Shown here piece by piece: positions 2,093 through 7,576 of a stretch of 7,576 nt of DNA (position 1 is the first letter of the stretch; each line of letters begins with the position of its first letter). The DNA is taken from contig CP070688.1 of NCBI GenBank assembly GCA_020353135.1, forward strand, positions 1,351,430 to 1,359,005, written 5' to 3'. Under the pieces are notes generated by a model that saw nothing but the letters and a program-made list of their open reading frames with translations, ran no database searches and was not told the origin of the DNA. Source of the stretch: Chloroflexota bacterium. GTDB taxonomy: Bacteria > Chloroflexota > Anaerolineae > Promineifilales > Promineifilaceae. The translations under genes and the position numbers were made by a program.

Positions 2093-3226
2093 ATGGCTGG
2101 TATTGAAGGTGATGTTTGGCGACAAGAACACGATCATTCCAAAGGACCAAAACGAGAACCCGGACCGATCGAGATCAATCGCTACGTAGTCAATAGCGGC
2201 GCACACGCAGGTATACCCACGTTCATGAATTGGCCGGTGTGTTTGACGCCGGAAGATTTGAAGGCGGGCGAGATTAATGTAGCCGTCATTGGTGCGCCGA
2301 TCGACATGTCTGTTGGCCAACGTGGTACGGCCTGGGGACCACGGGCATTGCGCACGGCCGATCGCTACTTGCCCGGTGGTCCGATTGCCCGAAACATACT
2401 CACCCACACCCATGTGATGTTCAAGCCATATGAGGTGCTCAACTGCGTTGATTATGGCGATGCCGGCATCGACCCGTTGAGCATCGAGAATTCCCATGAG
2501 GAAGTTCGCAAACGGGTACGCGAGATCGCTGAGACCGGCGCTTTTCCCATTGTGCTGGGCGGCGATCATTCACTTATGCGGCCGGATGGCATGGCCCTGG
2601 CCGATGTCTATGGCAAAGGCAAGGTCGGCATCATTCATTTTGACGCCCATTACGACGCTTCTGACAATCACTTCGGTCATCAGATTTCGCACGGAACGCC
2701 CGTCCGGCGGTTGATCGAAGACGGCTATGTGGACGGCAAGAACTTCATCCAAGTGGGTTTACGAGGCTACGCACCCTGGGAAGATGATGTGAAATGGATG
2801 CGCGAACAGGGCATTCGCTCTCACTACATGGCTGAGGTGGAAAGGGATGGCTTCCACAAGGTGATGGAGCGGGCCATTGCCGAGGCGCTGGACGGACCAG
2901 AAGTCATTCACATATCTTATGATATTGACTCGCTAGATCCGGCATACGCTCCAGGCACGGGTACGCCAGAACCGGGCGGCTTCACGACCCGGGAAATTTT
3001 CCCGATGATACGTCGCTTATGCGCCGAGACGCCAGTCGTTGGCATGGAACTGGTGGAAGTGGCTCCCGGCTGGGACCCCGGTTATACGACCGCGCTCAAC
3101 GGCTTGCGTATCATCCAAGAAGCTATAACCGGGATGGCCATGCGCAAACAGGGCATCACCGAGCCGCATTACCTGGACCCGCGCACCTCTGGGCAAGATC
3201 CGGTGCCCGGACAGCGGACGGATTAG
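2093..3226 (+). CDS. gdmH: Ureohydrolase family enzyme, probable Ni-dependent guanidine hydrolase
   Basis: This 377-residue protein is a complete ureohydrolase (arginase/agmatinase fold). The dinuclear metal motifs are present: 'LGGDHS' with H159, 'DAHYD' with D184, H186 and D188, and 'SYDIDSLDPA' with D277 and D279. 'SHGTP' (199-203) and 'GTGTPEPGG' (288-296) are the usual active-site loops. An N-terminal extension of about 60 residues precedes the core ('INVAVIGAPID'), making it longer than typical agmatinases of about 300-320 residues and close to Synechocystis GdmH (about 390). The decisive clue is context: dedicated HypB and HypA homologues follow, as in the gdmH-ghaA-ghaB system, where the chaperones deliver nickel. 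The inferred reaction is guanidine plus water to urea plus ammonia, in the cytoplasm. Agmatinase or guanidinobutyrase are alternatives, but those use manganese and would not explain the chaperones. Confidence 0.85.
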   Translation: MAGIEGDVWRQEHDHSKGPKREPGPIEINRYVVNSGAHAGIPTFMNWPVCLTPEDLKAGEINVAVIGAPIDMSVGQRGTAWGPRALRTADRYLPGGPIARNILTHTHVMFKPYEVLNCVDYGDAGIDPLSIENSHEEVRKRVREIAETGAFPIVLGGDHSLMRPDGMALADVYGKGKVGIIHFDAHYDASDNHFGHQISHGTPVRRLIEDGYVDGKNFIQVGLRGYAPWEDDVKWMREQGIRSHYMAEVERDGFHKVMERAIAEALDGPEVIHISYDIDSLDPAYAPGTGTPEPGGFTTREIFPMIRRLCAETPVVGMELVEVAPGWDPGYTTALNGLRIIQEAITGMAMRKQGITEPHYLDPRTSGQDPVPGQRTD

Positions 3227-3233
3227 CTGGCAA

Positions 3234-3902
3234 ATGACCGAGACGCGAATCATCGACGTTAAGAAGAAGATCCTGGGCAAGAATGACCAGATGGCCCAGG
3301 ATCTGCGGGCCGACTTCGCCCGTCATGGCGTCTTCGTGGTCAACCTGGTCAGCAGTCCGGGCGCCGGTAAGACCGAATTGCTGCGGGTTACCATGACGAA
3401 ACTGCGGAAGACGCACAAGCCCGCGGCCGTAACCGGCGACCTGGCCACCGAAAACGACGCCGCCCGCCTACTGGAAAGCGGCGCCCTGGCCAAACAGATC
3501 CTGACCGGCACCATGTGCCACCTGGAAGTGAATATGGTCAAGAGCGCCATCCAGGAGTGGGATCTGGCCGAGATCGATTTCCTGTTTATCGAGAACGTGG
3601 GTAATTTAGTTTGTCCCGGCGACTTCGACCTGGGTGAGGATCTGCGAGTGATGCTGATTGCCACCACCGAAGGCGAAGACAAGCCGCTCAAATACCCGAC
3701 GTTGATCAGCACCTGTGACGTGGTGGTGATCAACAAGATGGATATCGCCGAGGCTGTCGAGTGTGACGTCGAACTACTGGAACGCAATATTCACGAGGTC
3801 CGGCCGGGCGCGCCCATTTTCAAGACGTCAGCCAAAAAGGGAACGGGGCTGGATGAGTGGCTGGCTTTCTTGCGCGGGCGATTTGAAGAGAAGAAGTCTT
3901 AG
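3234..3902 (+). CDS. ghaB: HypB-like GTPase, nickel insertion chaperone (GhaB)
   Basis: This 222-residue SIMIBI-class GTPase resembles the hydrogenase maturation factor HypB. Visible motifs are the P-loop 'SSPGAGKT' (40-47), 'GDLATEND' (68-75), the metal-site pair C95-H96 in 'TGTMCHLE', 'ENVGNLVCP' (120-128) with C127, 'NKMD' (167-170) and 'SAKKGTG' (199-205). It lacks the N-terminal CxxCGC nickel site of E. coli HypB and the histidine-rich stretch found in others, so only the GTPase-domain metal site remains. The gene starts seven bases after gdmH with no clear ribosome site of its own, suggesting coupled translation. With no hydrogenase or urease genes in view, its likely client is the ureohydrolase upstream. 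A true hydrogenase HypB in an unusual place is the less likely alternative. Confidence 0.88.
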   Translation: MTETRIIDVKKKILGKNDQMAQDLRADFARHGVFVVNLVSSPGAGKTELLRVTMTKLRKTHKPAAVTGDLATENDAARLLESGALAKQILTGTMCHLEVNMVKSAIQEWDLAEIDFLFIENVGNLVCPGDFDLGEDLRVMLIATTEGEDKPLKYPTLISTCDVVVINKMDIAEAVECDVELLERNIHEVRPGAPIFKTSAKKGTGLDEWLAFLRGRFEEKKS

Positions 3903-4264
3903 TGCACGAATTATCTGTCGCCATGCGCATCGTCGAGGCCCTGGACCAGGAGTTGGCCGGGGAGGGGGCTGATCTGATCGTATCGACGGTGGCCATCCAG
4001 GTTGGCGCACTCACCGGGCTAGTGCCCGAGGCTCTGCAATTTTCCTGGGATTTCGCCACCGAGGGTAGCGTTCTGCAAGGCTCGAAGCTGGATATTCAGG
4101 TAGTGGACGCGGCCGGTTACTGCCCACAATGCCAGGAAGAGCGAACGATCACCAATCTACAATCCATGCGCTGCCCGGTTTGTCGCGCGCCCATAGGTCA
4201 GATAAGCGGCGGCAACGAACTGGAGATCCTGACCGTGGAAATTCAATCAGAGATCCATGCCTGA
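3902..4264 (+). CDS. ghaA: HypA-like nickel metallochaperone (GhaA)
   Basis: This 120-residue protein is a full-length HypA homologue. It starts at GTG 3902, the only start that gives the family's N-terminus 'MHELSVAMRIVEAL', whose H2 and E3 belong to the nickel-binding site. A structural zinc site is formed by C74-x2-C77 and C91-x2-C94, separated by 13 residues. The start overlaps the ghaB stop (TAGTG), so the two chaperones are translationally linked and probably made together. By analogy with HypA/HypB, it would hold nickel and pass it to the enzyme with the GTPase's help. The gene order hydrolase-HypB-HypA differs from the hydrolase-HypA-HypB order recalled for Synechocystis. Confidence 0.88.
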   Translation: MHELSVAMRIVEALDQELAGEGADLIVSTVAIQVGALTGLVPEALQFSWDFATEGSVLQGSKLDIQVVDAAGYCPQCQEERTITNLQSMRCPVCRAPIGQISGGNELEILTVEIQSEIHA

Positions 4265-5702
4265 TCCTGAATCTCCGGAACAGCGACCCGGTTCGACAAG
4301 GCTCCGGCCGCCTTCCTTCGAGCGTCGTTTCATTGCCTCTGAAACGGATGACGCAGATACGCTGGTGGCCCTGGCCAGCGACGAAAGTTACTTCGTCCGG
4401 CGGCAAGCCGTCCAGAATCCCAATACGCCAGGGTGGATCCTCGATCTGCTAGTGAAAGCGGGCGCCACAGCTGACCTTCGCGGCAGGGGCGCCATTGACC
4501 CCGATCTCGACGGCGATTCCTTGCGCCGCCTGGTCGAAACTGGTCCCTGGGCAAGACAGTTAGTGGCCGAGCATCCCAACACGCCGGCCGCGGTGCTGGC
4601 GGCGCTCAAGGATCAGCCGTCGATCCCCTTGCGGTTAGCTATAGCCGGGCATCCCAACGCAGACGGAGACACCCTGGCGGCTTCATGCTGTAACATTGAA
4701 GCTGGCATTCGGGCGGCGGCCGCAGCCAATCCCAATTGCCCGTCAGAAGTGATAGAGATATTGCGCGCCGCCGGCGCCAGGCCCGATTTGGCGGGCGTTA
4801 CGCGCAGCTTTGCACCTCTAACCGGGGAGCAATTAACCCGGCTGGCCGATTTGGGCGCCTGGGCACGATTCCTGGCCGCGCGGCATCCTGACAGCCCGCC
4901 CGACCTGTTGGTGAACATCTCGAGCGATCCTGAATGGCGGGTTCGTTCCGGGTTAATTGACAACCCCAATACGCCGGATAGCCTCATAGAGGGAGCGCTA
5001 AACGCGCCGGTGGCGGACGATGTGTCGACTATCCGCTGCCTGAGCCGGACGTCGATTCCGGCCGAGATCCAGGTTAAACTGGCTCGCTACCCAGACCCAG
5101 AAGTGCGGTTGGCCCTGGCCCGCCATCCGGCCGCGACGCCAGAGATGCTGGGCCGGCTGGTTAGTGACGGTAGCAAAGAAATCCGGCGATTGGCGGCCGG
5201 CCACCCCAAAACCAGGGCGGCCGATGCGCAGCTGTTGGTCCGGGCTGGGTCAACGCCGGATCTGATGGGCTTGAGCGAGCCTGATCCCAAGATGCCGGCT
5301 GAAGAAATCGAGACCTTGCTGGAGGGCGGCGTCTGGGCCCGGCAACTGGCCGTGCGCCATCCCAATACGGACGGCGACACAATGGCCCGTTTGCTCTGCG
5401 ATCGGGAACCAAAGATCCGGGAATGGGCGGCCGTGCATCCCAATTTGCCGGCCGAGACCAAGCGCGATCTGATCCGCGCCGGTAGCGGCACTGACCTTCA
5501 AGGCTTCATGCCGCCCGACCCTGATTTGCCGCCGGCTAGGCTGCGGCAGATCTGCGCCTTGGGTTCCTGGGGCGAGTGGGTCGTGGCCAACAACCCATAT
5601 GCTCCGGCCGATCTGTTGGAAACTCTGGCCCAATCAGCGGATCCCCAGATTCGGCGATTCGTGACCCTTAATCCGGGGACAGAAGATTCTTCTGATCCGT
5701 GA
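4257..5702 (+). CDS. Variant leucine-rich repeat (LRV) solenoid protein
   Basis: This 481-residue protein consists almost entirely of helical repeats of the LRV type. Twelve copies of a motif like 'xxxRxLVAxHPNTP' have their N/H-P positions at residues 54, 106, 132, 158, 210, 236, 290, 316, 368, 394, 446 and 472. The steps are 26 or 52 (once 54), so the period is 26. Four of the 52-residue gaps carry a second unit, 'RAGxxxDLxG' (from residues 67, 171, 329 and 407), always 31 residues before a tryptophan in 'WAR' or 'WGE' (98, 202, 360, 438). There is no signal peptide, membrane segment or cysteine cluster like the Fe-S domain of Azotobacter LrvA. It overlaps the ghaA stop by eight bases, so it belongs to the operon. 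Function is unknown; a binding scaffold for the hydrolase or chaperones is conceivable. Confidence 0.85.
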   Translation: MPDPESPEQRPGSTRLRPPSFERRFIASETDDADTLVALASDESYFVRRQAVQNPNTPGWILDLLVKAGATADLRGRGAIDPDLDGDSLRRLVETGPWARQLVAEHPNTPAAVLAALKDQPSIPLRLAIAGHPNADGDTLAASCCNIEAGIRAAAAANPNCPSEVIEILRAAGARPDLAGVTRSFAPLTGEQLTRLADLGAWARFLAARHPDSPPDLLVNISSDPEWRVRSGLIDNPNTPDSLIEGALNAPVADDVSTIRCLSRTSIPAEIQVKLARYPDPEVRLALARHPAATPEMLGRLVSDGSKEIRRLAAGHPKTRAADAQLLVRAGSTPDLMGLSEPDPKMPAEEIETLLEGGVWARQLAVRHPNTDGDTMARLLCDREPKIREWAAVHPNLPAETKRDLIRAGSGTDLQGFMPPDPDLPPARLRQICALGSWGEWVVANNPYAPADLLETLAQSADPQIRRFVTLNPGTEDSSDP

Positions 5703-7102: not shown

Positions 7103-7576
7103 CTACTGGTCAGCTGGGGGCGGGGCTGATCCTCTGGCGACGGACGAGGATGGCCTGGTATTCACCGTGAGTTGGAAGACGTCCGGCCGGGCGTAATGGC
7201 CGGTGACGTCGAAATCAAACTTGCCTTCGGCCACCTTGGCCAGGTCCAGTTCGGCCGTCAGGATCCCTTCTTCGCCGAACAACGGGCCGGCGAGCACGTG
7301 GCCAAGGGGCGAGATGATAGCGCTGCCGCCCCGCGAGAGCAGGTGGGGTTGATCGGCCAGTTCGTCCTGGCCTTCGAATTCGTCCGGGTACATGTCCTTG
7401 GTGAAGTATTGATTGCAGCCGACGACGTAACAGCGGCCTTCGCAGGCGATGTGGCGCAGGGTGGCTTGCCACGAATCGCGGCTATCGGCCGTCGGCGCCA
7501 GGTAGATCTCCACCCCTTGATCGTACATGGCCATGCGGGCCAGGGGCATATAGTTTTCCCAGCAAATCAAGCCGCC
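7103..7576 (-). CDS. Nitrilase (carbon-nitrogen hydrolase family), C-terminal half
   Basis: Read on the minus strand, the frame is open from the window edge (7576) to the TAG at 7105-7103, so the 5' half lies outside; the TTG at 7570 is not a real start. The first visible residues '[11 protein letters not shown]' hold the catalytic cysteine (codon 7564-7562) in the context typical of branch-1 true nitrilases, which convert nitriles to acids plus ammonia, rather than amidases. '[16 protein letters not shown]' and '[16 protein letters not shown]' are further family blocks. The catalytic Glu and Lys would lie upstream. The C-terminal tail ('[17 protein letters not shown]') is low in complexity. 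Substrate cannot be told; related enzymes act on aliphatic, aryl or cyano compounds. Confidence 0.85.

Follow-up and report, generated by a model that had tools for sequence, protein, structure and literature searches.

Control by guanidine riboswitches is frequent, though not universal, among GdmH-type guanidinases, and in Synechocystis HypA/HypB-type chaperone genes adjoin the GdmH gene. According to PMC11271267, GdmH needs chaperones of this type, and pairs of arginase-family genes are spread over four phyla, the majority in two MetCaCb clades and near genes for nickel chaperones. PMC11410670 reports that no chaperones were found for the N. inopinata guanidinase; PMC11399263 states that the MefH/DmgH enzymes require a second, degenerate ureohydrolase subunit, and terms the choice between nickel and manganese among ureohydrolases an open question. 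Here we analyse a stretch of 7576 bases from a Chloroflexota bacterium (contig CP070688.1, positions 1,351,430 to 1,359,005, forward strand; hereafter the window, at its full length) that encodes a ureohydrolase followed by HypB and HypA. With modest confidence, we read the locus from its sequence as an operon built around a ureohydrolase from a clade that is so far uncharacterised. The dinuclear metal site of this enzyme would most likely hold nickel supplied through the co-encoded HypB and HypA, and its substrate would be a guanidino compound bearing a tail.

The three genes are tightly coupled. The HypB start lies 7 bases beyond the ureohydrolase stop, and hypB and hypA overlap by 1 base (TAGTG), the GTG start of hypA falling on the hypB stop. 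An initial annotation of this DNA had described the same three open reading frames (ORFs) with spacings of +7 and −1 and with no hydrogenase or urease gene in view. All three lie exactly where it placed them, Pfam and NCBIfam confirm their families, and the junction sequence bears out the distances between them. Out of 52 ORFs listed mechanically, we scanned 13, some of them as pieces, and none of these gave a match to a hydrogenase or urease domain. A Shine-Dalgarno-like AAAGGAGA is present 5' of the ureohydrolase gene. The co-directional run is longer than that annotation described: it overlooked a leucine-rich repeat variant (LRV) gene that overlaps hypA by 8 bases and is likely the fourth member of the operon.

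The catalytic machinery of the ureohydrolase is complete. We aligned the window protein with those 116 of the best 120 listed relatives that reach a length of 340 residues, and found all six metal ligands (H159, D184, H186, D188, D277 and D279) kept in 117/117 sequences. The catalytic residues E322 and H200 are present in 116/116 and 113/116 relatives, and H196, near-invariant (107/116 relatives), is a feature of the family. The chaperones are likewise complete by motif: HypB carries a P-loop (GAGKT), CHLE, CPGDFDLG and NKMD and lacks His within its N-terminal 30 residues, and HypA carries an N-terminal MHE and two CxxC, with a TIGR00100 score of 86.1 bits, just below the cut-off of 88.1. Taking these motifs to have the roles usually assigned to them, both chaperones look functional.

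To which family does the enzyme belong? Agmatinase was rejected on curated models, the protein reaching neither TIGR01230 (153.7 against a cut-off of 174.3 bits) nor NF002564 (194.2 against 302 bits), and it also scored below the cut-offs of the arginase and formimidoylglutamase models. Homologues do bear the names agmatinase and HypB, so the initial annotation was right that automatic labels would conceal the gene set. The best single-sequence PDB scores went to GbuA (3nio, 177.8 bits) and GpuA (3nip, 170.7 bits), the best structural matches were 9fek and 7esr, and GdmH ranked second in a profile search, with 30-32% identity to GdmH and the N. inopinata guanidinase. The initial annotation had also proposed a ureohydrolase tree, and its outcome is divided: the window protein's family forms its own clade (branch support 99/100) outside the GdmH and MefH branches, but the approximately unbiased (AU) test did not reject the family and GdmH as one clade (p 0.104) and gave p 0.127 for the family, GdmH and MefH together. 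Membership of the GbuA/GpuA clade was rejected by the same test (p 0.0024). In the literature, searched by titles and the starts of abstracts, we found nothing on this ureohydrolase clade.

The pairing of this ureohydrolase with HypB recurs on other contigs. Linkage was inferred by pairing matches whose contigs agree in size and source, with 120 shifts as controls; the input was 119 of the best 120 ureohydrolase clusters, the best 120 HypB clusters and the first 69 LRV matches after the window's own, each cluster being represented by its longest contig alone. At least 8 ureohydrolase/HypB pairs emerged against a chance mean of 0.72 and maximum of 3, and at least 7 at 1900 bases or more (chance mean 0.32). 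One pair, P0027/P0147 (1349 bases), was discarded as chance, the contig being too short for both genes; the ureohydrolases P0036 and P0053 were paired to one HypB; and the P0073/P0226 pair (2765 bases) is doubtful, its ureohydrolase being 89% like that of a 9611-base contig and the HypB proteins of the two contigs 67% alike. This leaves about six other contigs with both genes, including the doubtful one. A contig of 2074 bases offers little room beyond the two genes, and on a 7950-base contig both are named Ilumatobacteraceae; thus the link is present outside Chloroflexota. LRV shares at least 3 contigs with the ureohydrolase (chance mean 0.24) and at least 4 with HypB (mean 0.34), and because these counts exceed chance and all three lists include the 9611-base contig, LRV probably belongs to a unit with the other two.

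What is the substrate? In PMC11410670, guanidinases are recognised by T97 and W305 in Synechocystis, or T105 and W313 in N. inopinata. The aligned residues of the window enzyme are Gly75 and Thr291, and the T97/W305 pair occurs in 0/117 aligned family members; guanidinase was therefore rejected on residues, and the published rule would place the window enzyme outside the guanidinases. We took T97 as the second Thr of GTTYR, the chain index of 9fek being the published numbering plus 2 (W313, D299, D301) and the 7esr offset assumed equal. Compared with GdmH, GbuA, GpuA, PAH and SpeB, the Gly75 loop lacks one residue, so that the alignment may slip by one column at T97; the column beside it holds Thr in 20/117 sequences and the W305 column holds Trp in 0/117, and the window protein has no Thr at either place. 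Across the 19 residues from D188 to R206, ahead of the catalytic His and beyond, the enzyme shares 10 identities each with GbuA and GpuA, 7 with PAH, 5 with the N. inopinata guanidinase and 3 with GdmH; two proteins annotated speB also share 9. Because the pocket-closing Trp and the Thr of guanidinases are missing and the loop ahead of the catalytic His is GbuA/GpuA-like, a tailed guanidino compound, possibly an acid, would be a more likely substrate than free guanidine.

Is the metal nickel? An ordinary manganese ureohydrolase, acting on a guanidino acid or amine, could merely lie beside a hypBA pair that serves a hydrogenase or urease elsewhere in the genome. We regard this as unlikely, yet several observations weigh in its direction and against nickel: (i) among the listed relatives, 31 reach 65% identity and lie on contigs of at least 5 kb, and of these HypB was paired to at least 3, and HypB or LRV to at least 5; (ii) P0021, on a 6.09-Mb contig, was paired to neither among the listed matches; (iii) no HypB was found at E 1e-20 in G304, a genome with a same-clade ureohydrolase and a single urease-domain match, weak and incomplete (25.9 bits, cut-off 23, one internal stop); and (iv) the identities of ureohydrolase and HypB agree weakly in 7 putative pairs (r 0.54; 343/5040 permutations). 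Moreover, the Deinococcus radiodurans hypAB genes sit within a urease operon, and plasmid relatives of HypB adjoin hydrogenase genes. Against a chance neighbourhood stand the recurrence of the linkage above chance, once on a contig with named partners (Ilumatobacteraceae), the 7/−1 base spacing and the lack of hydrogenase or urease domains in the scanned ORFs. The counts under (i) and the case of P0021 suggest that the ureohydrolase/HypB pairing is not universal. Given the patchy linkage, the lack of HypB in G304 and the weak agreement of identities, the family as a whole does not depend on HypB, and nickel may be used by only some of its members. The nickel-chaperone link is supported but patchy, and nickel is plausible.

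Two further explanations concern the substrate. The initial annotation read the locus as that of a probable nickel guanidine hydrolase; such a GdmH-type enzyme could split free guanidine to urea and ammonia despite having neither T97 nor W305. The adjoining HypBA genes, the top structural matches to guanidinases, the rank of GdmH in the profile search and the unrejected common clade all point that way, but the residue pair is missing in all 117 sequences, the family forms a separate clade, the loop ahead of the catalytic His differs, and an Rfam search of the window at E up to 1, which takes in 2092 bases upstream of the ureohydrolase gene, gave no match, guanidine riboswitch included. We consider free guanidine improbable as the substrate; what stands of the earlier interpretation is that the ureohydrolase comes with HypBA of its own, that a link to nickel is probable and that the label conceals this. 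A MefH/DmgH-type enzyme, hydrolysing dimethylguanidine or a biguanide, would share the set of hypB, hypA and a ureohydrolase gene. It is very improbable here: such enzymes need a degenerate second subunit (PMC11399263), whereas we recognised in the window a single arginase-family protein, which moreover falls outside the MefH branch.

Under the reading that we favour, a nickel ureohydrolase acting on a tailed guanidino compound, HypA and HypB would deliver Ni(II) to the ureohydrolase, which would split the guanidino compound into urea and an amine. The LRV protein, whose six Cys are scattered and form no N-terminal cluster, would be an added partner; to judge from other repeat proteins, it could be a scaffold or help in assembly. 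Urea as a product is in line with a relative on the megaplasmid of Novosphingobium sp. RL4 (L003, 7662-14387), where an exported-looking ureohydrolase of the same clade lies directly upstream of urease genes, as judged from ORF reading and a match to the ureB small RNA; this RNA is the only Rfam match in L001, L003 and L021.

Table. Positions in the window of the operon genes and of the two codons aligned with guanidinase residues.
Feature	Positions	Strand	Details
Ureohydrolase (arginase-family) gene	2093..3226	+	377 aa, N-terminal extension of ~35 residues ahead of the core; PF00491 E 6.3e-76
Gly75 codon, aligned with guanidinase T97	2315..2317	+	column G in 114/117, A in 3/117
Thr291 codon, aligned with guanidinase W305	2963..2965	+	column T in 114/117, S in 3/117
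hypB, nickel-insertion GTPase gene	3234..3902	+	222 aa; TIGR00073 260.6 bits, cut-off 121.2
hypA, nickel metallochaperone gene	3902..4264	+	120 aa, GTG start; PF01155 93.2 bits, cut-off 28.9
LRV (leucine-rich repeat variant) gene	4257..5702	+	481 aa, start inside hypA; PF01816 E 7.3e-26

A scan for promoters and terminators found sites no commoner than in shuffles. A MarC-family gene lies 32 bases 3' of the LRV gene. Upstream of the operon, positions 524-1428 encode a nucleotidyltransferase (PF18765 over its cut-off; MntA-like NF047752 50.4 bits, cut-off 60) and a HepT RNase (NF047751 over its cut-off), a probable type VII toxin-antitoxin pair by these domain matches. A short-chain dehydrogenase (SDR) remnant at 1609-1909 has an adh_short match in its first 50 residues; by eye the next frame resembles the tail of an SDR, but it matches no Pfam or NCBIfam model. 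The region has the appearance of a decayed gene. On the minus strand, a nitrilase-family (CN_hydrolase) gene at 7103-7576 is truncated at the window end, and its best NCBIfam model, Nit6803, scores far below the cut-off.

Among the matches listed, named relatives of the ureohydrolase belong to Anaerolineales, Chloroflexi bacterium TSY, Acidimicrobiales, Acidimicrobiia, Ilumatobacteraceae and Dormibacteraeota, and those of HypB to Chloroflexota, Caldilineaceae, Anaerolineae and Ilumatobacteraceae. Ureohydrolase relatives were found at 1 locus in a genome scan and at 2 distant loci in viral contigs; a phage search gave 7 records (best 32% identity), two of which serve only as tree references. 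Two of 398 genomes of G001's phylum had a match at E 1e-60, G001 among them. The clade of the window enzyme also includes relatives that look exported, from Novosphingobium sp. RL4 (L003), a Labrenzia metagenome-assembled genome (L001, L013) and genome G304 (L011). Unlike the window enzyme, these carry an N-terminal extension that resembles a signal peptide by eye, and no hypBA genes were found beside them in the stretches examined; the shortened loop is common to the window enzyme, L003, L001 and L011 but not L013. The two Labrenzia ureohydrolases (L013 414-1688 and L001 9788-11059) are divergent, and each lies near a gene that by eye resembles an AraC-type regulator.

How does the locus compare with known systems? 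With GdmH of Synechocystis (PDB 7esr, 7oi1) and the N. inopinata guanidinase (9fek), the window enzyme shares the ureohydrolase fold, an N-terminal extension and the six metal ligands, and the GdmH chaperones GhaAB are of the HypA/HypB type found here. It differs from the guanidinases in having Gly for T97, Thr for W305, a loop shortened by one residue and a separate clade, and its locus differs from that of GdmH in the lack of a riboswitch and the presence of an LRV partner. GbuA and GpuA resemble it in the loop ahead of the catalytic His, but a common clade is rejected by the AU test; we know of no chaperone linkage for either. The metformin/dimethylguanidine hydrolase operon hypB-hypA-mefHa-mefHb-hupE (pMET-2, L015) has the same hypB-hypA order and adjacency to a ureohydrolase, but there the ureohydrolase is paired with a degenerate subunit, the chaperones lie upstream and a HupE-type gene is present, whereas the window has a single ureohydrolase, downstream chaperones and LRV. 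The MetCaCb-type loci of PMC11271267 are gene pairs, against one ureohydrolase here. A ureohydrolase with hypAB is insufficient by itself for calling guanidine use, and a clade in which some members carry the chaperones while others apparently do not, and in which the guanidinase residues are missing in all compared members, offers a test set that separates the choice of metal from that of substrate. Tentatively, and with some doubt, the locus may represent a third class of nickel ureohydrolase beside guanidinase and metformin/dimethylguanidine hydrolase, one with its own HypBA, an LRV partner and a guanidino substrate new to nickel enzymes, which occurs in both Chloroflexota and Acidimicrobiia and which the name agmatinase conceals.
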